A stretch of DNA of 64,000 nt, from assembly GCF_030408735.1 (NCBI RefSeq), contig NZ_CP047205.1:39708-103707 (forward strand), written 5' to 3'. A program made the position numbers and the translations under genes. The notes under the pieces were generated by a model. The model made no database searches. It was not told the origin of the DNA and was given only the letters and a program-made list of their open reading frames with translations. Every line of letters starts with the position of its first letter. Within the stretch, counting starts at the first letter, position 1. The stretch comes from Corynebacterium faecale. GTDB taxonomy: Bacteria; Actinomycetota; Actinomycetes; Mycobacteriales; Mycobacteriaceae. Shown here in pieces: positions 38,799 to 48,983 of the stretch.

Positions 38799-40426
38799 GC
38801 CGCGTGCAGGGACCCATTGACCCCAGACTCCTTGCTCTGGTTCCGCCGGTGTGGGGCCTGATCCTGCGTACCGGCGTTCTGCAGGCGCTCACCACCGTGT
38901 TAGTGCTCGCCCGCGGGGTGCTCATCGGCTGGATCGCAGCCCGCGTCATCTTGGACCGCGGCGCCGACTGGGACGTGCTGACCTGGCCAGTGGTGGCACT
39001 TTTCGTGGTCATTGCTGTCCACGGCGTCGTGTCCGGTCATGCGCAACGCGCCTCCTCGGAGAGCGTCGGACGGGTCGTGGATACGCTGCGGGCCAAGGCT
39101 CTGACCGCGTTGCGACGCCGCGATCCCCGCCGCGTGCAGGAGGAATCGGCCCACTGGCGTGAGGTACTCACCGACGGTATCGAGGACTTCCGGCCCTACT
39201 TGAGCGAATTTCTGCCCTCGCTGGTCGCCGTCGTGCTGGCTACTCCGGCCGCTTTGGTGGTGGTGCTGGTGGCGGACCCGGTCTCCGGAATCTTGGCGCT
39301 GGTGACGGTGCCGCTGATCCCGGCCTTCATGGTGTTGATCGGCAAGCTGACCGCCGCGCATACCCGACGCCGCCTGGAGGTGACCGCTGCTTTGGGCGGG
39401 CAGCTGGCGGATCTACTCTCCGGCTCGCTAACGCTGCGGGCGCTGGGAGCCATCCGTCATCCGAGTAGGCAGCTGCGGTCCACGGGGCGTCGCCATGAAA
39501 AGGCCACCATGTCGGTGCTGCGCCTGGCATTCCTCTCTTCCTTCGCCCTGGAGTTCCTGGCCACCCTCGCGGTGGCGCTAGTTGCTGTGAGCATCGGGCT
39601 GCGCCTGGTGGACGGGAACATGGAGTTGACCGCCGGGCTGATCGCGCTGATCGTGGTCCCGGAGGTGTACAACCCGATCCGGCAGGTGGGTACGAACTTC
39701 CACGCCGCAGCCGATGGGCTGGCCGCCGTCGAGGAGATCTTGGAGCTGCTGGATGAGGATGCCAAAGCAACCGACACATCCGGGGCCGGAGCGGACCACC
39801 GCGGCCGGACCTATCTGACCCACCGCGAATCACCTGGAGACGCCCAACTGACGGTCACCGGCCTCAGCGTGAGAGGCCGCGACGGCATGAAGCCGGAGAA
39901 CTTGAGCTTCACCGCCGAACCTGGGACGATCACCGTGTTGTACGGCGACAACGGTTCCGGAAAATCCACTGTGTTCCTCGCCGTCCTGGGCGCGCTGCCG
40001 GATGATCTGGTCACCGGACGGGTCGTCGCTGCGCCGTTGGTGCGCACGGCCTATCTGCCGGCCCGGCCGGTACTGGTGCAGGGCAGCGTAGAGGACAACC
40101 TCGTGCTGCTGGGTGCGGAGCGTGGGCCGGCCACCGAAACCGCTCGGAACCTGGGCTTCGACGTGTCGCTGGAACGCCGCCTCGGACCGGCGGGGGAAGG
40201 CATCTCGGCGGGCCAGGGCCAACGCCTGGCCCTGGCGCGCACCCTGGCGGGCGGCACCGGCCCCACGCTGTATCTGCTGGATGAACCTAGCGCGCACTTG
40301 AGTCCGGAGCTGGTGGAGGCCCTCTCCGCTGAGCTGCGGCGGCGTGCAACGGCCGGACACACGGTGGTGGTGGCCAGTCATGACGTCCGGCTGGCCGCGA
40401 TCGCGGATGAGGTGGTGTACCTGTGA
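38795..40426 (+). CDS. cydD: Heterodimeric ABC exporter CydD (glutathione/cysteine, haem-linked)
   Basis: 543 residues. An N-terminal six-helix ABC domain precedes an ATPase domain with Walker A LYGDNGSGKSTVFLAVLG, signature GEGISAGQGQRLALARTL and Walker B LYLLDEPSAHLS. CydDC is needed to assemble the bd oxidase and exports reduced thiols to the outside. The GTG start overlaps the cydB stop. The ATPase D-loop reads SAHLS. Confidence 0.93.
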   Translation: MSRVQGPIDPRLLALVPPVWGLILRTGVLQALTTVLVLARGVLIGWIAARVILDRGADWDVLTWPVVALFVVIAVHGVVSGHAQRASSESVGRVVDTLRAKALTALRRRDPRRVQEESAHWREVLTDGIEDFRPYLSEFLPSLVAVVLATPAALVVVLVADPVSGILALVTVPLIPAFMVLIGKLTAAHTRRRLEVTAALGGQLADLLSGSLTLRALGAIRHPSRQLRSTGRRHEKATMSVLRLAFLSSFALEFLATLAVALVAVSIGLRLVDGNMELTAGLIALIVVPEVYNPIRQVGTNFHAAADGLAAVEEILELLDEDAKATDTSGAGADHRGRTYLTHRESPGDAQLTVTGLSVRGRDGMKPENLSFTAEPGTITVLYGDNGSGKSTVFLAVLGALPDDLVTGRVVAAPLVRTAYLPARPVLVQGSVEDNLVLLGAERGPATETARNLGFDVSLERRLGPAGEGISAGQGQRLALARTLAGGTGPTLYLLDEPSAHLSPELVEALSAELRRRATAGHTVVVASHDVRLAAIADEVVYL

Positions 40427-42117
40427 AGTCCGAATTTCGCGCCCTGAGCGCCATGCTGCGCCTGGCCGGCGTGCGCTACCGCGAGGTCGTCGCGGGTATC
40501 GCTGCCGGTTCCATCACGCTGATCTCTGCGTTGACCCTGACGATCGTTTCCGGTTGGTTAATCACCAAGGCTTGGCAGATGCCACCGGTGCTGGACCTCT
40601 CGGTCGCGGTCACCGCGGTGCGCGGCCTGGGCATCTCCCGGGCAGTATTCCGCTACGTGGACCGGCTGCTCAGCCACCGCATCGCGCTGCGGGCCCTGAC
40701 CACATTGCGGTCACGGGTCTTCGACGCGCTGGCTTTTGACCACACCGGCACCGGCCGAGGACACCTCTTCACCCGCGGTGACGGGCTGGTGCGCCTGGTC
40801 GCCGACACCGAACGCATCACTGACGTCATCGTCCGTTCTGTCGTCCCCGGTGGGGTGGCATTGGTGCTCACCGTGTTCGCGGTGGCCGGCGCTACCTGGC
40901 TGCACCCGGCAGCGGGCCTGGTCCTGACTCTCGGCTTCATGGTCACCGGCCTTATCACCCCGTGGCTGGCGGTGCGGGCGGCCAGACGTTCACGCCGAGT
41001 GTTCGCCGAGGACAACCTCGACGTGGCCCTGGATGAACTGCTGGACCACCGCGTCGAGTTCGCCGCCGCCGGCCTGGGGGCGAAACGCGAGGAGTGGGCC
41101 CTCACGGCGTCGCGACGCAGCAGCGACGCCACCGTCGCCGCCGAGAAACCGCTGGCCACCTCACAGGTCTTGATCACCTGGTCCACCGGTCTGGCGGCGG
41201 CGCTGACCGTGGTCGTTGGCGCGCTGACCTACACCGGGGACCCCACCTGGCTGGGCATGATGGTGCTGCTGCCGCTGGCCGCCTTCGAGTCTCACGCCCA
41301 GCTCTCAGAAGCTGCGATCCACGCCGACGAGGCCTCCCGCAGCGCCCACCGACTCACCGACCTGGTCAAAGAATCCGACACCACTTCGGCGACGGACGGC
41401 GGGGAGGCGACGGCGTGGGAGCTCGATGGCTGTCACCTTAAAGCCACCGACCTACGTTGCCGCTTCGGCGATACCACCTGGCAGGTGGATCTGCCACCCG
41501 GTGAGCGCATGGTCATTCGCGGCCCCAGCGGTTGCGGCAAGACCACACTGCTGCAGACCCTGGGTGGCCTGGTGCCACCACGCAGCGGTTCTGTCACGCT
41601 GGGAGGGCAACGTGTGCCGGAGATCGACCCGGCCGCGTTGCGGAAGACCGTCCGCGTGCACGCGGAGGACGAATGGCTCTTCTCCACCACTATCCGACAG
41701 AACCTCCTCGTGGCCAACCCGGCCGCCAGTGACGGGGAACTATGGGAGGTCCTGCATGCGGTGGGGTTAGATGACTGGCTGCGGGAGACTGTGGGACCGG
41801 TCACCGACCCGCTGGACCTGCTGCTTGCCGACGGCGCGGGTTCCCTGTCGAGCGGGCAGCGCCGCCGTCTGCTGCTGGCCAGGGCGCTATGTTCCACCGC
41901 GCCGGTGCTGCTGTTAGATGAGCCGACCGAACACATTGACGCGGCAGATGCCGACGACCTGCTGGACACCCTCCTGGCCAAGCCGCTACCCGGACCGCGG
42001 ACCCGACGCAGCGTCATCGTGGTCACCCACCGGTCGGATAAGCAGGACGGCGGGAACACTGAAGTCGGAGAAGTAGACATCCGCCGCTACGCCGACCCGG
42101 TGACGGAGCACCCCTAA
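40423..42117 (+). CDS. cydC: Heterodimeric ABC exporter CydC
   Basis: 564 residues. A membrane domain (SALTLTIVSGWLITKAWQMP) precedes an ATPase domain with Walker A IRGPSGCGKTTLLQTLGG, signature GSLSSGQRRRLLLARAL and Walker B VLLLDEPTEHIDAAD. It overlaps cydD by four bases (GTGA). The last 20 bp of the gene lie inside the 513-bp direct repeat that borders the composite transposon, so the insertion left the gene intact. Confidence 0.93.
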   Translation: MKSEFRALSAMLRLAGVRYREVVAGIAAGSITLISALTLTIVSGWLITKAWQMPPVLDLSVAVTAVRGLGISRAVFRYVDRLLSHRIALRALTTLRSRVFDALAFDHTGTGRGHLFTRGDGLVRLVADTERITDVIVRSVVPGGVALVLTVFAVAGATWLHPAAGLVLTLGFMVTGLITPWLAVRAARRSRRVFAEDNLDVALDELLDHRVEFAAAGLGAKREEWALTASRRSSDATVAAEKPLATSQVLITWSTGLAAALTVVVGALTYTGDPTWLGMMVLLPLAAFESHAQLSEAAIHADEASRSAHRLTDLVKESDTTSATDGGEATAWELDGCHLKATDLRCRFGDTTWQVDLPPGERMVIRGPSGCGKTTLLQTLGGLVPPRSGSVTLGGQRVPEIDPAALRKTVRVHAEDEWLFSTTIRQNLLVANPAASDGELWEVLHAVGLDDWLRETVGPVTDPLDLLLADGAGSLSSGQRRRLLLARALCSTAPVLLLDEPTEHIDAADADDLLDTLLAKPLPGPRTRRSVIVVTHRSDKQDGGNTEVGEVDIRRYADPVTEHP

Positions 42118-42610
42118 GTGCTTATCTGCTTGTCGACGCCTCCTGAGCCCGGAGGCAAGTCGGGGTGAGCCGGTCACCGCAGGGTGATGCCGATGTGCTC
42201 GACACCCACCAAACCGGCATCGAGCTGCCCCTCACAAGGCAAGAGAACACCGCAATATAAGTACCCAGGTCCCCTGACCGTGTGGTCGGGGACCTGGGTG
42301 CTGCCCTCTTCGGTTTCTGCCCTAGTGCGAGTTGATCCTCGTTGACGGTGAGCATCTGCCTCACCATCCGGTAGGCGTGCTCGTCCCACCCTTGGCGTAC
42401 AGCATCGCGGACGAGTCGGGAGCGTTCCCACCGGTGACCGCAGCCAATGACAGGGGTATTGTCGCGGCGGCGGCCGATCTCCCCGGGACAGAGACCTTCA
42501 TCCACGTCGAACCCCTGGCGGGCAGTGACGCGCCTTGACTGTCCCTAGATCCCACTCCTTTCTCAGGGGCGAAGATCTGTTCGCTGAATGCGCCGTGCCC
42601 AGGCCGTCAA
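42098..42610. repeat. 513-bp direct repeat, left copy (target duplication of composite transposon)
   Basis: By base-by-base reading this is identical to 47963-48475. It starts within cydC and ends at the outer end of the left IS1634-family copy. It contains a strong hairpin and short open frames of unknown status on both strands (for example 42332-42538), with no recognised gene. Confidence 0.95.
42263..42299 (+). terminator. Strong hairpin after cydC (left repeat copy)
   Basis: Arms ACCCAGGTCCCC-TGACC and GGTCGGGGACCTGGGT pair over 16 bp with one bulge. It is a likely terminator or transcript stabiliser for cydABDC, although no T-run follows. The identical copy is at 48128-48164. Confidence 0.6.
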
Positions 42611-44284
42611 CCCGACTTGGCTCAATTTAGTGCCGTCGTCACCCTGACTGGATCCGGTCGATGAGCTCCTGGACCGGAACCGGCAGCGGTGACGCAGCAT
42701 GCACGGTTTGGCCGGCGACCTGAAGCTCGAAGGTCCGATACTTGCGCAACGTACGAACCAGACGCTTGAGAGACAACCCTGACCGCTGTTCCAGCAGGTG
42801 GCCCACAGCCATCGCGGCCATCACCACCGCCAGATGCGCGTCAATCGATTCACGCTTGTGGTGATAAATCGGCCGCGCTTTGAGATCTGACTTCGACATC
42901 CGGAACGTCTTCTCAATCTTGAGCAGCTGCCGATACGCCCCGATCACCTCCTCGGGCCCCAAGTCGATTCGGGAGGTTTCGTAGCCCTTGATCCCGGCCA
43001 GGGCCCTGTTCTTGTTCACCAACGCCCAGTTGACCTGCTTGTTCGGTGACTTCAGATCCACGAAGCGATTACGCTTGACCGCGATCTTGCCGGCCACCGC
43101 CTTCTCAGCCTTGGCCACCTGCTCGTCAATGCCTTTGAGGGTGCGCCGTGCCCTATCCCAGGAGTACTGGTAGTAGGTCACCTCCCCGACCACACCGTCT
43201 GAGGCTCCCTGGTCGGCACGGCTGCCGGACTGCCAGATCTGGCCGTGGGTGTAGTCCTGGCCCGGATGCTCCTTGCGCCACTGCGCGATCGGGGCCGGCA
43301 GCTGACGAAACTTCGTGCCGATGATGTAGTGCAACCCGGCGTCGACGATGGCCTTCTTGTTGCCAGCGGAAAACATGCCGGCGTCCGCCACGACAGTGAT
43401 GTCGTCGGCGTCGAAGGAGTCCTGGAAGCGCCGGATCATCGGCAGCATCGTGCGGGTTTCGGCCATGTTTCCCTCGAACGCCCCGACCGCGAGCGGAAAT
43501 CCTGACTGATCCGACAGCAGGCCGACGGTGATCTGTGGTTCCAGGCGTCGCTCCTTGGAAAACCCGGGTTTGCGGAATTCGTCGGCTTCGTCGGTTTCGA
43601 AGTACAGGGTCGTCACGTCGTAGAGGACCAGCACCCCGGGGCCGATCCCGGCATGGGTGGCACACGCCCGGGTGATCTGATCCCGGAAATCGGTGGTGGC
43701 ATAGCGGGGTAGTCGTCGTTTGATCGTGGCGTAGCTGGCGCTGGCCACGCCGATGTCGGCCAGTGTTTCCACCGAGTCCAGTTTCGATCCCGGTTGCACG
43801 ATCCTCGCGGTGACCAGGTCGACGAAGACCTGGTCGTTGTTGGTGGCCTGGTCGAAACCCAAGACTTGGTAGGCGGTGGTGATCGCATCGATGAGGTAAC
43901 CGGCGCGTTCAGCGGTCACCGGGACTGGGGCCTCCTGGGTGCCGGTCGCCGCCGCGGTGGTGTCGACACCCAGATCAAGTGTCATCTGATCGCCGTCGAG
44001 GAGGCGTTGGGCCTGGGCTTTGAGCATCGCCAGTTCATCGTCGGTATGTGCCGAGCCGATGTGTTCGAGCTTTTTCGATCCGCGGTGTTGCGAGTACACG
44101 ACCTGTACCGCGGTGGCACCGGAGGCGGTGGTGACGGTCCGGATGTAGGGGCTCACAAAGTTCAATCGTATCGGCGACCCCGGGCTTCACCCCCTTAGTG
44201 CACAGAAGTCAGGGATCGCACGCCTGAACCTACTGGTCTAGGTGTCAATATGGTGATGGTCACAGCACTTTGAGCCAAGTCGGG
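42611..44284 (-). mobile_element. IS1634-family insertion sequence, left copy
   Basis: 1674 bp with terminal inverted repeats CCCGACTTGGCTCA at the left end and its reverse complement TGAGCCAAGTCGGG at the right end. Confidence 0.92.
42639..44165 (-). CDS. tnp: IS1634-family transposase, left copy
   Basis: 508 residues, IS4-like DDE fold of the IS1634 group. Visible parts include VLYDVTTLYFETDEADEFRK (first catalytic Asp region), FDADDITVVADAGMFSAGNK (second) and the C-terminal YRQLLKIEKTFRMSKSDLKA (Y..K-E-..R signature), followed by RPIYHHKRESIDAHLAVVMA. Frame is complete and identical to the right copy, so at least one is probably active. Confidence 0.93.
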   Translation of the reverse strand: MNFVSPYIRTVTTASGATAVQVVYSQHRGSKKLEHIGSAHTDDELAMLKAQAQRLLDGDQMTLDLGVDTTAAATGTQEAPVPVTAERAGYLIDAITTAYQVLGFDQATNNDQVFVDLVTARIVQPGSKLDSVETLADIGVASASYATIKRRLPRYATTDFRDQITRACATHAGIGPGVLVLYDVTTLYFETDEADEFRKPGFSKERRLEPQITVGLLSDQSGFPLAVGAFEGNMAETRTMLPMIRRFQDSFDADDITVVADAGMFSAGNKKAIVDAGLHYIIGTKFRQLPAPIAQWRKEHPGQDYTHGQIWQSGSRADQGASDGVVGEVTYYQYSWDRARRTLKGIDEQVAKAEKAVAGKIAVKRNRFVDLKSPNKQVNWALVNKNRALAGIKGYETSRIDLGPEEVIGAYRQLLKIEKTFRMSKSDLKARPIYHHKRESIDAHLAVVMAAMAVGHLLEQRSGLSLKRLVRTLRKYRTFELQVAGQTVHAASPLPVPVQELIDRIQSG

Positions 44285-44364
44285 ACCACGGCGCGACGCT
44301 GGGTCTCGTCGAGCTGCACGAACAGCTCGGGCCAGCGGTCCTCGATGTCGAACTTCGTAGCCAC
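44285..44364 (-). pseudogene. N-terminal fragment of a VbhA-like antitoxin gene
   Basis: From a GTG at 44364 with a purine-rich site, the frame reads VATKFDIEDRWPELFVQLDE, then TQRRAVV, and is cut by the left IS copy. The DRWPELF..L...QRRAV pattern resembles the start of small VbhA-type antitoxins that pair with Fic toxins. Only 26 residues remain. Assignment is tentative. Confidence 0.45.
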
Positions 44365-44538
44365 GGTGGGGCTCCCCTCTCCTGGGTCTGAGACCATTCT
44401 ACCGGAGCAACCGAAAACGGTCCAGCGGTGGTTTCGGTGCGTCTAGGTTTCGGTGGTGAGTTTCGGTTGACCGATGCTCGGCGTGTCGGCGCTCTGGTCG
44501 ACGTCGCCGGCATCCGCACCGGAAACGATCGTTATCGG

Positions 44539-45090
44539 TCAGGGCGAGGTGGTCGCGGGGATCATGGCGGCGATGGCCTCGGCCACGGCGCTCCGGAACT
44601 GGGGGTTCAGGCGGGTGTCGTACATCGACTCGAAGCTCCACAGCCCGTCCGCGGCGAGCCGGGCGATGAACATCGCGAACGCACGCGGGTCGGTCGCTGC
44701 CTCCTCTGCGGTGGGCGTCCACCGCGCCACGACGCCATCCCACTGCGCGGCGAGGCCGGCGTGCTTGGAGAACTCGAGAATCAGGGCCAGCTCGGCGCTA
44801 CCGGCCGACTCGGTCGCCACCCGCGCGTACGCGGCCAACCGTTCCTCCGGCGTCGCCTCCGCGGCCGTCTTGCCGGCGGCTGCCTCCATCGCTCCCTCCC
44901 AGAACACGATCAAGTGCTCTTGGATGCCCCACAGCAGGGCCTCCCGGCTCGGGAAGTAATACATGAGCCCGGCCTTGGTCAGCCCGGCCTCCTGCGCGAC
45001 AGCATCCAGGGTGATCCCGGTCACCCCGTCACGCTCCGCGACGCGCAGCGCGGCGTCAAGGATGTTGGTGCGCTTGCTAGGTCGCGTCAC
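44539..45090 (-). CDS. TetR-family regulator of the SMR pumps
   Basis: 183 residues. The N-terminal HTH is KRTNILDAALRVAERDGVTG, then LDAVAQEAGLTKAGLMYYFP, followed by a helical ligand domain. It is divergent from the two SMR genes, with a TACCA-TT-TGGTA dyad between, the arrangement of QacR-like systems. It probably derepresses the pumps on binding cationic compounds. Confidence 0.9.
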   Translation of the reverse strand: MTRPSKRTNILDAALRVAERDGVTGITLDAVAQEAGLTKAGLMYYFPSREALLWGIQEHLIVFWEGAMEAAAGKTAAEATPEERLAAYARVATESAGSAELALILEFSKHAGLAAQWDGVVARWTPTAEEAATDPRAFAMFIARLAADGLWSFESMYDTRLNPQFRSAVAEAIAAMIPATTSP

Positions 45091-45156
45091 CGCGCACCTC
45101 CCGTCCTCGAATCGCCCGGCACCGAGCTTGGCTGGCGAGCCTCGCCCGAGTTACTA

Positions 45157-45168
45157 TACCATTTGGTA
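45157..45168. promoter_or_regulatory. Dyad operator between tetR-like and SMR genes
   Basis: TACCATTTGGTA, arms TACCA and TGGTA around TT, overlaps a TATACC -10-like hexamer. Candidate TetR-family operator. Confidence 0.55.
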
Positions 45169-45234
45169 GGTTGCTTGAATCGTCTGAGTTCCGGTAAGGG
45201 GTCGCGGCCCCACCCAGCTCCTCTCGAAAGTCGA

Positions 45235-45585
45235 ATGATGAAGAAGTGGATACTCCTCGCCTGCGCGATCCTCAGTGAGGTCACCGGGTCGCTCTCCCTC
45301 AAAGCCGCGCTCGGTCATCCGGGCTGGTATGCGCTCGTGGTCGCCGGTTTCTTCTGCGCGTTCATGTTCCTCGCGCTCGTCCTGCGCGAGCGCGTGCCGC
45401 TCGGCGTCGCCTACGGCATCTGGGGAGCCTCCGGCGTCGCCCTCACCGCGATCCTGTCCACCCTGATCTACGGTGAACCGCTCACCCCGATCATGGTCGG
45501 CGGGATCGTGCTCATCATCCTCGGCGTGCTGACTATCGAACTCGGCTCCCAACGCGCCGCCCGCCAGAGGCAGGCGGCGAGCTGA
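45235..45585 (+). CDS. SMR-family efflux subunit 1
   Basis: 116 residues with four helices. The essential membrane Glu is in CAILSEVTGSLSLKAALGHP. Conserved later parts are VPLGVAYGIWGASGVALTAIL and GGIVLIILGVLTIELGS. Two ATGs in tandem (45235, 45238) are possible starts. Small multidrug pumps of this type often work as pairs and expel quaternary ammonium compounds or guanidinium-like cations. Its stop overlaps the next start (TGATG). Confidence 0.92.
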   Translation: MMKKWILLACAILSEVTGSLSLKAALGHPGWYALVVAGFFCAFMFLALVLRERVPLGVAYGIWGASGVALTAILSTLIYGEPLTPIMVGGIVLIILGVLTIELGSQRAARQRQAAS

Positions 45586-45905
45586 TGGCCTGGCTGTTCC
45601 TCGCCGGCGCGATCGGCTTCGAGGTCGCCGCGACCCTCTCCCTGCGCATGGCCACCCACGGCCGCAAGCTCTGGTTCGTCGCGGTCATCGCCGGCTACAT
45701 CGTCGCGTTCACCATGCTGGCACTCGCCCTCGACGCGGGGATGGCCCTCGGCGTCGGCTACGGCATCTGGGCCGCCTGCGGCGTCGCCCTCACCGCCATC
45801 CTCTCCAAGCTCCTCTTCGACGAGCCGTTTTCGTGGATCATGGCCGCCGGCATCGCCCTTGTCGTCGGCGGCGTCCTCCTCGTCGAACTCGGCGCCGCGC
45901 ACTGA
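45585..45905 (+). CDS. SMR-family efflux subunit 2
   Basis: 106 residues. The membrane Glu is in AGAIGFEVAATLSLRMATHG, followed by ALGVGYGIWAACGVALTAILS and AAGIALVVGGVLLVELGAAH. It overlaps subunit 1 by one base. Paired coupled genes suggest an antiparallel heterodimer like EbrAB or YkkCD. Confidence 0.92.
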   Translation: MAWLFLAGAIGFEVAATLSLRMATHGRKLWFVAVIAGYIVAFTMLALALDAGMALGVGYGIWAACGVALTAILSKLLFDEPFSWIMAAGIALVVGGVLLVELGAAH

Positions 45906-45944
45906 GCCGTGGCCGACACACCGCGGGCCGCTGCCGGCGTGCGG

Positions 45945-46288
45945 TCAGCGTTCGAGTTGGCCGGGCCGGTCGGCGGTAGGTCCGTTCGCTCGTACTGCGG
46001 TGACCGTGACGGCGCGGGCCTGCGGGGCGCTTGGGAATGACGCTGCCCTTACGTTCGTCACGGCGCCGGCGAGAGGGGAGCGCTCGCCCTCCTGGGTGAG
46101 CGTGAATGCCTCGACGACCTCGGCGCGGTCGAGCGGGATTCGGTAGTGCAGCTCGCCGTCGGGGAACTCGTCTTCGAGCTGCGCGTCGGCCTCGTCGACG
46201 CGCACGTGCACGACGGCTGATCCGTAGCCGGCGGCCTCGCCGTCGACGTGCGTCGAGACGTACGCCTCCGGCGTGTTCTCACGTGTGA
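45945..46288 (-). pseudogene. 5'-truncated unknown gene at the right inner IS border
   Basis: The frame enters from the right IS copy and reads ENTPEAYVSTHVDGEAAGYG, then VHVRVDEADAQLEDEFPDGE, to a stop at 45945. It is acidic and beta-rich with no recognised family. The missing N-terminus shows that the captured segment was excised from a larger source region. Confidence 0.5.
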
Positions 46289-47962
46289 CCCGACTTGGCT
46301 CAATTTAGTGCCGTCGTCACCCTGACTGGATCCGGTCGATGAGCTCCTGGACCGGAACCGGCAGCGGTGACGCAGCATGCACGGTTTGGCCGGCGACCTG
46401 AAGCTCGAAGGTCCGATACTTGCGCAACGTACGAACCAGACGCTTGAGAGACAACCCTGACCGCTGTTCCAGCAGGTGGCCCACAGCCATCGCGGCCATC
46501 ACCACCGCCAGATGCGCGTCAATCGATTCACGCTTGTGGTGATAAATCGGCCGCGCTTTGAGATCTGACTTCGACATCCGGAACGTCTTCTCAATCTTGA
46601 GCAGCTGCCGATACGCCCCGATCACCTCCTCGGGCCCCAAGTCGATTCGGGAGGTTTCGTAGCCCTTGATCCCGGCCAGGGCCCTGTTCTTGTTCACCAA
46701 CGCCCAGTTGACCTGCTTGTTCGGTGACTTCAGATCCACGAAGCGATTACGCTTGACCGCGATCTTGCCGGCCACCGCCTTCTCAGCCTTGGCCACCTGC
46801 TCGTCAATGCCTTTGAGGGTGCGCCGTGCCCTATCCCAGGAGTACTGGTAGTAGGTCACCTCCCCGACCACACCGTCTGAGGCTCCCTGGTCGGCACGGC
46901 TGCCGGACTGCCAGATCTGGCCGTGGGTGTAGTCCTGGCCCGGATGCTCCTTGCGCCACTGCGCGATCGGGGCCGGCAGCTGACGAAACTTCGTGCCGAT
47001 GATGTAGTGCAACCCGGCGTCGACGATGGCCTTCTTGTTGCCAGCGGAAAACATGCCGGCGTCCGCCACGACAGTGATGTCGTCGGCGTCGAAGGAGTCC
47101 TGGAAGCGCCGGATCATCGGCAGCATCGTGCGGGTTTCGGCCATGTTTCCCTCGAACGCCCCGACCGCGAGCGGAAATCCTGACTGATCCGACAGCAGGC
47201 CGACGGTGATCTGTGGTTCCAGGCGTCGCTCCTTGGAAAACCCGGGTTTGCGGAATTCGTCGGCTTCGTCGGTTTCGAAGTACAGGGTCGTCACGTCGTA
47301 GAGGACCAGCACCCCGGGGCCGATCCCGGCATGGGTGGCACACGCCCGGGTGATCTGATCCCGGAAATCGGTGGTGGCATAGCGGGGTAGTCGTCGTTTG
47401 ATCGTGGCGTAGCTGGCGCTGGCCACGCCGATGTCGGCCAGTGTTTCCACCGAGTCCAGTTTCGATCCCGGTTGCACGATCCTCGCGGTGACCAGGTCGA
47501 CGAAGACCTGGTCGTTGTTGGTGGCCTGGTCGAAACCCAAGACTTGGTAGGCGGTGGTGATCGCATCGATGAGGTAACCGGCGCGTTCAGCGGTCACCGG
47601 GACTGGGGCCTCCTGGGTGCCGGTCGCCGCCGCGGTGGTGTCGACACCCAGATCAAGTGTCATCTGATCGCCGTCGAGGAGGCGTTGGGCCTGGGCTTTG
47701 AGCATCGCCAGTTCATCGTCGGTATGTGCCGAGCCGATGTGTTCGAGCTTTTTCGATCCGCGGTGTTGCGAGTACACGACCTGTACCGCGGTGGCACCGG
47801 AGGCGGTGGTGACGGTCCGGATGTAGGGGCTCACAAAGTTCAATCGTATCGGCGACCCCGGGCTTCACCCCCTTAGTGCACAGAAGTCAGGGATCGCACG
47901 CCTGAACCTACTGGTCTAGGTGTCAATATGGTGATGGTCACAGCACTTTGAGCCAAGTCGGG
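46289..47962 (-). mobile_element. IS1634-family insertion sequence, right copy
   Basis: 1674 bp, the same as the left copy including the terminal repeats, in the same orientation. Confidence 0.92.
46317..47843 (-). CDS. tnp: IS1634-family transposase, right copy
   Basis: 508 residues with the same deduced protein as the left copy. Identity of both copies points to recent assembly or gene conversion. Confidence 0.93.
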   Translation of the reverse strand: MNFVSPYIRTVTTASGATAVQVVYSQHRGSKKLEHIGSAHTDDELAMLKAQAQRLLDGDQMTLDLGVDTTAAATGTQEAPVPVTAERAGYLIDAITTAYQVLGFDQATNNDQVFVDLVTARIVQPGSKLDSVETLADIGVASASYATIKRRLPRYATTDFRDQITRACATHAGIGPGVLVLYDVTTLYFETDEADEFRKPGFSKERRLEPQITVGLLSDQSGFPLAVGAFEGNMAETRTMLPMIRRFQDSFDADDITVVADAGMFSAGNKKAIVDAGLHYIIGTKFRQLPAPIAQWRKEHPGQDYTHGQIWQSGSRADQGASDGVVGEVTYYQYSWDRARRTLKGIDEQVAKAEKAVAGKIAVKRNRFVDLKSPNKQVNWALVNKNRALAGIKGYETSRIDLGPEEVIGAYRQLLKIEKTFRMSKSDLKARPIYHHKRESIDAHLAVVMAAMAVGHLLEQRSGLSLKRLVRTLRKYRTFELQVAGQTVHAASPLPVPVQELIDRIQSG

Positions 47963-48475
47963 CGGTGACGGAGCACCCCTAAGTGCTTATCTGCTTGTCG
48001 ACGCCTCCTGAGCCCGGAGGCAAGTCGGGGTGAGCCGGTCACCGCAGGGTGATGCCGATGTGCTCGACACCCACCAAACCGGCATCGAGCTGCCCCTCAC
48101 AAGGCAAGAGAACACCGCAATATAAGTACCCAGGTCCCCTGACCGTGTGGTCGGGGACCTGGGTGCTGCCCTCTTCGGTTTCTGCCCTAGTGCGAGTTGA
48201 TCCTCGTTGACGGTGAGCATCTGCCTCACCATCCGGTAGGCGTGCTCGTCCCACCCTTGGCGTACAGCATCGCGGACGAGTCGGGAGCGTTCCCACCGGT
48301 GACCGCAGCCAATGACAGGGGTATTGTCGCGGCGGCGGCCGATCTCCCCGGGACAGAGACCTTCATCCACGTCGAACCCCTGGCGGGCAGTGACGCGCCT
48401 TGACTGTCCCTAGATCCCACTCCTTTCTCAGGGGCGAAGATCTGTTCGCTGAATGCGCCGTGCCCAGGCCGTCAA
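47963..48475. repeat. 513-bp direct repeat, right copy
   Basis: Identical to 42098-42610. It begins at the outer end of the right IS copy with the last 20 bp of cydC sequence and runs into unique DNA at 48476. Confidence 0.95.
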
Positions 48476-48638: not shown

Positions 48639-48983
48639 TTAGGAGCGGGCGAAGCGGGCGATGGCATCGGTGACTTCCTGAAATTTCGCGTCTGCAGCCT
48701 CGCCTCCCGACTGGGCGGCATCGCGCACGCAGTGCCTCATGTGGTCATCGAGCAGGCCCAGGGCGACATTGCGCAGGGCGGAGTTGACCGCGGAGACCTG
48801 GGTGAGGATATCGATGCAGTACTGCTCCTCGTCGACCATGCGGTGTATGCCCCGGACCTGGCCCTCGATGCGCTTGAGGCGGGCAAGGTAGCGGTCCTTA
48901 TCGTTGATGTAGCCGTGGGTGGTGTGGCAGGTGCCTGCCGTTTCGTCACTAGGGACGGTCTGATCAGGGGTGAGGGTATTCAT
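48639..48983 (-). CDS. csoR: CsoR copper-sensing repressor
   Basis: 114 residues of all-helical DUF156. The Cu(I) ligands are visible as Cys in EEQYCIDILTQVSAVNSAL and His/Cys in LLDDHMRHCVRDAA (C-H-C). The DNA-contact segment is YLARLKRIEGQVRGIHRMVD. Cu(I) binding releases DNA. It is the last gene of the leftward copA-csoR pair, so it is autoregulated through the copA promoter or its own. Three CsoR-type palindromes are present in the window. Confidence 0.93.
   Translation of the reverse strand: MNTLTPDQTVPSDETAGTCHTTHGYINDKDRYLARLKRIEGQVRGIHRMVDEEQYCIDILTQVSAVNSALRNVALGLLDDHMRHCVRDAAQSGGEAADAKFQEVTDAIARFARS

Follow-up and report, generated by a model that had tools for sequence, protein, structure and literature searches.

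A composite IS1634-family transposon bounded by a perfect 513-bp direct repeat between cydC and csoR in Corynebacterium faecale

According to the family table of a 2008 review, insertion sequences (IS) of the IS1634 family are 1,500–2,000 bp long with ends of the form C-----YT (PMC2266710). The usual product of their insertion is given there as a 5–6-bp AT-rich target repeat, with IS1549 (Mycobacterium smegmatis) and IS1634 (Mycoplasma mycoides) named as exceptions that carry direct repeats of 8–514 bp, and the passage on these two elements states that no mechanistic model had yet been proposed for the long repeats (PMC2266710). In M. mycoides strain PG1, 60 copies of IS1634 are described (PMC1798306). 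Two further members are relevant for comparison. Tn6097 of Paracoccus is a composite of two identical IS1634-family copies (ISPfe2), described in the relevant section of its report with convergent copies and 6-bp repeats (PMC3281130), and ISGka5 of Geobacillus, for which transposition was demonstrated, also has 6-bp repeats in the section that describes it (PMC8024623).

The locus studied here lies in a 64,000-nucleotide stretch of Corynebacterium faecale contig NZ_CP047205.1 (hereafter the window), in which two IS copies enclose a short cargo. The copies (42611–44284 and 46289–47962, both on the minus strand) are identical over 1,674 bp, have the same orientation and carry terminal inverted repeats, with the ends CCCGACTTGGCTCA / TGAGCCAAGTCGGG; both the length and the terminal bases (CCCGACTT) agree with the family description. 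Each copy encodes a transposase on the minus strand (42639–44165, 508 aa as called, with a TTG start, and identically 46317–47843), which was assigned to the IS1634 family, as the preliminary description had proposed, with 365.4 bits against model NF033559 (cut-off 100; no competing model scored above 33.4 bits). It also matches Pfam DDE_Tnp_1 at the profile level only.

The cargo (44285–46288, 2,004 bp) matches a section of Miniimonas plasmid pS16-2 at 100% identity and, from 44489 onward, Paenarthrobacter plasmid pYJND-1 as well. It forms one contiguous identical stretch in a Micrococcales plasmid that has no IS at that place. A TetR-type regulator (44539–45090, minus strand; Pfam TetR_N and TetR_C_28) is followed on the plus strand by two subunits of a small multidrug resistance (SMR) efflux system. 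The first (45238–45585) is annotated so on pS16-2 and matches SMR models with every score under the curated cut-offs, and the second (45585–45905) matches Pfam Multi_Drug_Res above its cut-off. Both cargo margins are gene remnants on the minus strand: IS copy 1 truncates a vbhA-type antitoxin gene (44285–44364, intact in locus L024), and IS copy 2 truncates a hypothetical plasmid gene (45945–46288, intact in L024 and L025).

Sequence comparison within the window confirmed that 513 bp at 42098–42610 recur at 47963–48475 with zero mismatches. The two repeat copies abut the outer ends of the IS copies, and the bases immediately beyond them differ on both sides. Starting within the last 20 bp of cydC (ORF 40423–42117, TIGR02868), the repeat stops in DNA that has no clear gene, and a csoR/ricR-type gene follows beyond the right copy (48639–48983). 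This is the span from inside cydC into non-coding DNA that had been described beforehand, together with two identical IS copies around an SMR module. The 513-bp repeat stands outside the unit as a whole, and no such repeat surrounds either IS copy singly; judged by its sequence architecture, the unit between cydC and csoR is thus a composite transposon. It resembles Tn6097 in being built from two identical IS1634-family copies, but its copies are direct and its repeat is 513 bp long. The repeat likewise departs from the 5–6 bp usual for the family, and from the 6 bp of ISGka5, and falls with the long, variable repeats of IS1549 and IS1634, from which the locus differs in being a composite unit with cargo. 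A recent origin, as suggested earlier, is supported because the paired copies show no difference.

As a control for chance, flanks of different IS copies were swapped. Among 5,402 such pairings, abutting repeats of 5 bp occurred eleven times and of 6 bp twice, and only four longer ones were found, all of them at two compound IS loci, the window's own and L129, with two each. Since swapped pairings give almost no abutting repeats, a chance origin of the repeat is excluded.

The origin of the repeated segment was traced in related genomes. Repeat positions 1–389 adjoin cydC at 100% identity in four of them (G063, G236, G018 and G140), and the right part adjoins csoR in G018, G140, G087 and C. 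comes pCETAM. These relatives carry the two parts unfused and without an IS; a single contig of G140 has both, in order and separated by 3.97 kb. Comparison with L207 revealed the scar of an older deletion, about 3.97 kb in size, in the left repeat copy at a 9-bp microhomology (TCTCCCCGG, 42478–42486), and the same scar is present in the right copy (48343–48351). Because relatives have both parts without an IS and both copies share the scar, the repeat is target DNA and not element sequence, in line with the preliminary description. The shared scar also argues that one segment was duplicated after the deletion, so that the order of events, deletion first and duplication later, has good support. 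The empty site that had been predicted, with one 513-bp copy joining cydC to csoR, did not appear among the matches listed for 242 genomes of the genus (two candidates per genome scored), where relatives show the two unfused parts instead.

Repeat lengths were then surveyed in IS1634-family copies of actinobacteria, as had been proposed. Direct repeats of at least 20 bp were present in 77 of the 103 copies with both ends (median 127 bp, range 23–1,267 bp), repeats of 5–8 bp in six, and repeats shorter than 4 bp in 20, two of which are the composite's own. The long target duplications are nearly always perfect, and the copies bearing them are spread across the tree. Among the IS copies examined, long duplications of variable length are the rule, and 513 bp is an ordinary value. 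The earlier suggestion that it exceeds reported lengths does not hold, as it falls within the range given in the review's passage (PMC2266710) and seven of the 77 surveyed repeats are longer than 514 bp. What was an oddity of two named elements becomes a common trait of the sampled actinobacterial copies. Such duplications may double small genes or promoters beside the element, and tools that seek short repeats would be expected to miss them.

The survey sample is a part of the matches, with complete assemblies taken first. From the first set, 45 match groups with no recognised ends or short flanks (partial, broken or duplicate loci) were left out, among them L124, with a repeat of about 18 bp by a looser scan. 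From the second, 16 match groups and one duplicate were left out, and five of the 16, in which the looser scan gave a repeat, were added back, which slightly biases the counts toward the long-repeat class. Among the copies lacking a repeat, 18 lie outside the composite, and for five of these (L014, L114, L184, L185 and one in L205) the flank available on one or both sides was shorter than 800 bp, which may have hidden a longer repeat. In searches for empty sites of two repeat-free copies, relatives matched L141 closely on its right flank and barely on its left, and the two flanks of L139 matched different genomes.

The reading we favour, with a probability of roughly 0.72, is that two IS1634-family copies took up a TetR/SMR segment from a Micrococcales plasmid and that the resulting composite entered a probable Corynebacterium plasmid between cydC and csoR, duplicating 513 bp of target by end joining at a variable distance. 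The two IS ends would join opposite target strands, one end first and the second tens to over a thousand bp away. Repair synthesis from the free 3' ends would then copy the intervening DNA, and the length of the direct repeat would equal the spacing.

The same final structure would be expected if the 513-bp repeat stemmed from an earlier insertion of a single IS, with which a circle or another molecule bearing IS and cargo later recombined. The identical IS copies in direct orientation are consistent with this sequence of events, which we nevertheless consider rather unlikely, as it requires two steps and a donor, and no IS copy beyond the two was found in the 3.15-Mb genome among the candidates scored (40 of 74 in one search, 5 of 5 in another). 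An attack of each IS end on a separate sister chromatid in the wake of a replication fork, joining the chromatids with an overlap, would account for the variable length, and at L129 a left flank with one insertion is joined to a right flank without it. Deletions should then be as frequent as duplications, yet 77 long repeats stand against 18 copies with less than 4 bp outside the composite (the five with short flanks included). Nor was a replication-fork bias seen, with 26 of 50 transposases and 24 of 45 inferred extensions running in the fork direction (terminus assumed opposite dnaA), and we judge this explanation unlikely.

The tandem pair at L129 also has the geometry of two overlapping insertions combined, with repeats of 91 and 180 bp (the latter from coordinates). 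It is here that long repeats might be attributed to two nearby ordinary insertions on sister copies and unequal exchange inside the IS, and not to transposition itself; a perfect repeat abutting both ends would be produced in this way too. Two chance insertions within about 1 kb of a 2.5–3-Mb genome should, however, be rare, whereas 77 of 103 copies have long repeats, and one would expect reciprocal deletions at a similar frequency, which makes such an origin very improbable. An assembly artefact or an ancestral duplication is hardly credible: the strain is represented by one assembly only, but many independent assemblies show this pattern too, the scar in both copies puts the duplication after the deletion, and no second copy of either repeat part was seen among the matches listed in other genomes of the genus (two candidates per genome; nine in the search including G018).

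Several properties of the repeats were evaluated further. Base composition did not differ between repeats and flanks (59 copies), and repeat lengths showed no helical phasing at periods of 10.0–10.8, with a weak value at period 11.0 (p about 0.04, all 58, uncorrected).

Under the favoured reading of joining at a variable distance, the two ends may be chosen differently. TNNNA occurs at the repeat ends in 21/58 and 20/58 copies against a background of 3.8%, and among these first 58 repeats usually only one end has the target motif (about TTANA). The idea of a symmetric 5-bp site targeted at both ends was dropped because only 3/58 copies have TNNNA at both. For a one-motif-end model on the 58 copies, the observed value was reached by 0/500 simulations under either rival model and by 0/500 shuffled pairings, and the model beat the both-ends model in 88/100 half-split tests. 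It did not succeed when applied to 19 additional copies, most of which belong to more distant branches (lnL −314.0, against −310.0 for both ends, −309.4 for an independent mixture and −313.8 for background), also after refitting to them (−293.0 against −290.8 and −290.2), and shuffled pairings reached the observed value there in 79/200. The likelihood lead on the 58 shrinks once branches are fitted separately: the 39 closer copies favour one motif end (−585.9, against −590.3 for both ends and −590.0 for the mixture), and the 19 more distant ones do not (−291.1 against −288.7 and −288.8). In favour of the model, shuffled pairings reached the observed value in 0/200 for these closer and 3/200 for these more distant copies.

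A tentative reading is that site choice (about TTANA) falls to one end and that the other is largely indifferent to sequence; this gives a testable hint that site selection differs between the two IS ends. A general scheme of two unequal insertion steps, with either end at a TTANA-like site and the other joining near-randomly 20 to >1,200 bp away, mostly on the duplicating side, is doubtful. If true, the target duplication would be the stretch synthesised between two joinings and not a fixed stagger; such an insertion mode was not met in the portions of the literature searched. The window's own repeat ends, TTGAC and CGGTG, fit the motif poorly.

Re-examination of the sequence found the coordinates in the preliminary description exact, and its composite element with a 513-bp direct repeat real and correctly described. 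Two identical IS1634-family copies of 1,674 bp each lie in direct orientation at 42611–44284 and 46289–47962, with 2,004 bp of cargo between them (44285–46288) and two identical 513-bp segments outside them (42098–42610 and 47963–48475). The transposase was assigned to the IS1634 family (NF033559, 365 bits against a cut-off of 100), and no third IS copy was found in the strain's own 3.15-Mb genome. The cargo contains a TetR-type regulator and two SMR subunits, with a cut gene at each cargo end, two in all. Since flanking genes on the 103,707-bp contig that carries the window match the Corynebacterium plasmids pCETAM, pCmarinum1 and pCha1, this contig is probably a plasmid of a Corynebacterium.

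The 513-bp segment was searched for in 242 genomes of the genus, with two candidates scored per genome, and matches at E up to 1e-20 were obtained in 13 of them, the own genome included. Repeat positions 1–389 adjoin cydC at 100% identity in four other genomes (G063, G236, G018 and G140) and were matched at 86% in G120. The right part was present in G018, G140 and G087, where it runs on into the csoR side, and likewise in C. comes pCETAM. With its two parts found in relatives beside cydC and csoR, the 513 bp are target DNA, as had been proposed; a single-copy fused segment, the expected empty site, was not found among the 242 genus genomes. Four other genus genomes (L154, L155, L156 and L157), each taken as a different species, share 1,889 bp of the cydC region (40598–42486) at 100% identity, which suggests that this block was recently exchanged among Corynebacterium genomes. 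A segment of about 230 bp (42249–42480, also 48114–48345) has places of 72–75% similarity in nine other Corynebacterium genomes and a further one on the window's own contig (L009, G000:C2:2898-3130), and is perhaps a dispersed repeat.

In G140 both parts of the segment lie on one contig in the same order, about 3.97 kb apart, and the interval holds metal-transport genes. By comparison, the window's lineage is without these ~3.97 kb, and a 9-bp microhomology marks the deletion scar in the left (42478–42486) and right (48343–48351) repeats. The cydC side now abuts a cation-efflux (CDF) gene near csoR, of which the tail is left, and the longer form is kept in G140. Because the CDF gene that the join truncates extends further in G140, G018 and pCETAM, the window form is the derived one; as the join is present within both 513-bp copies, we infer that the deletion came first and the duplication afterwards.

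Repeats of 8–514 bp are given for IS1549 and IS1634 in a review (PMC2266710), according to which nobody had by then put forward a mechanistic model. IS matches were obtained in 34/242 genus genomes, 23/397 of the order sample and 21/394 of the class sample (overlapping sets, own genome included), and in 35 plasmid records, of which 18 were fetched. The survey comprised 103 distinct IS copies among those fetched that retained both ends and had 30 bp or more of flanking sequence. A direct repeat of at least 20 bp abutted both ends in 77 copies (23–1,267 bp, median 127, quartiles 76 and 244), and repeats of 5–8 bp were found in six. Long and short repeats were scattered across the tree of surveyed copies. 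Repeats were perfect in 57 of the first 58 long cases, and three of the 19 added later carried mismatches (1, 1 and 7). Lengths fitted a log-normal distribution (KS p 0.82) and an exponential was not rejected (p 0.24), the parameters having been fitted to the same data. In the one long case compared, the relative G014 had a single match to the 1,198-bp repeat of L087; it covers 1,181 bp at 95% and extends into about 100 bp of one of the outer flanks. That 513 bp would be longer than reported duplications, as the preliminary description supposed, was not borne out: the review reaches 514 bp, and seven of the 77 exceed this. The composite repeat is a new example of known behaviour, to which the length survey and a hint of unequal IS ends are added; no claim of novelty for repeats longer than 514 bp is made beyond the literature searched. 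For other members of the family, ISPfe2/Tn6097 and ISGka5, repeats of 6 bp have been reported.

Repeats below 4 bp were recorded in 20 of the 103 copies, two of which are the window's own, sharing the 513 bp as a unit. Transposition of the composite as one unit is the simplest reading of the locus; the same final sequence could also have arisen if a single IS inserted first and a circle carrying IS plus cargo then recombined with it. Four copies with good ends (L139, L140, L141 and L142) lacked a direct repeat within about 9 kb, for which rearrangement, deletion or IS–IS recombination are candidate explanations.

Among the 116 repeat ends of the first set, position 1 was T in 64 (65 in a second count, probably because the other copy of one imperfect repeat was used) and position 5 was A in 61. 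TNNNA occurred at 21/58 and 20/58 ends against a background of 3.8%, at both ends in only 3/58 copies, and was not clearly seen at the window's own repeat ends. When each copy was modelled with the motif (roughly TTANA) at exactly one end and background sequence at the other, lnL in this set was -886.8; a model treating both ends alike gave -902.8 and one with independent mixing -899.3. The observed difference was reached in 0/500 simulations under either rival model and in 0/500 re-pairings. In 100 overlapping half-splits the one-motif-end model beat the both-ends model in 88 and the mixture in 91. For the 39 closer training copies alone it was ahead (-585.9, versus -590.3 for both ends and -590.0 for the mixture; shuffle 0/200), whereas for the 19 distant ones it was not (-291.1, versus -288.7 and -288.8; shuffle 3/200), so that the pooled lead partly reflects differences between branches. 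In the 19 further copies (17 from outside the genus) the one-motif-end model was unsupported (-314.0, versus -310.0 for both ends, -309.4 for the mixture and -313.8 for background), its value being reached by 79/200 shuffled pairings. The evidence for unequal ends is suggestive and holds for the first set only, which is mostly Corynebacterium.

If this model is right, joining would be ordered: one IS end would join first at a chosen site (roughly TTANA), the second would follow at a varying distance, usually on the duplication-making side, and DNA synthesis would copy the interval between the two joinings. No link between fork direction and the IS copies was seen.

The cargo is 100% identical to plasmid pS16-2 of Miniimonas sp. 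S16 across all 2,004 bp, and to plasmid pYJND-1 of Paenarthrobacter sp. YJN-D over 1,800 bp. Both plasmids belong to Micrococcales and lack the IS at the matching places, and pS16-2 continues beyond both IS junctions of the composite. Given this identity, the transfer between orders is recent; its direction we infer.

A second direct pair of identical IS1634-family copies (L129, in G470) has a 126-bp spacer and a common 145-bp outer repeat, a geometry that fits two overlapping insertions combined. As the outer repeat contains IS-end-like sequence, the pair may have been inserted in an older IS copy.
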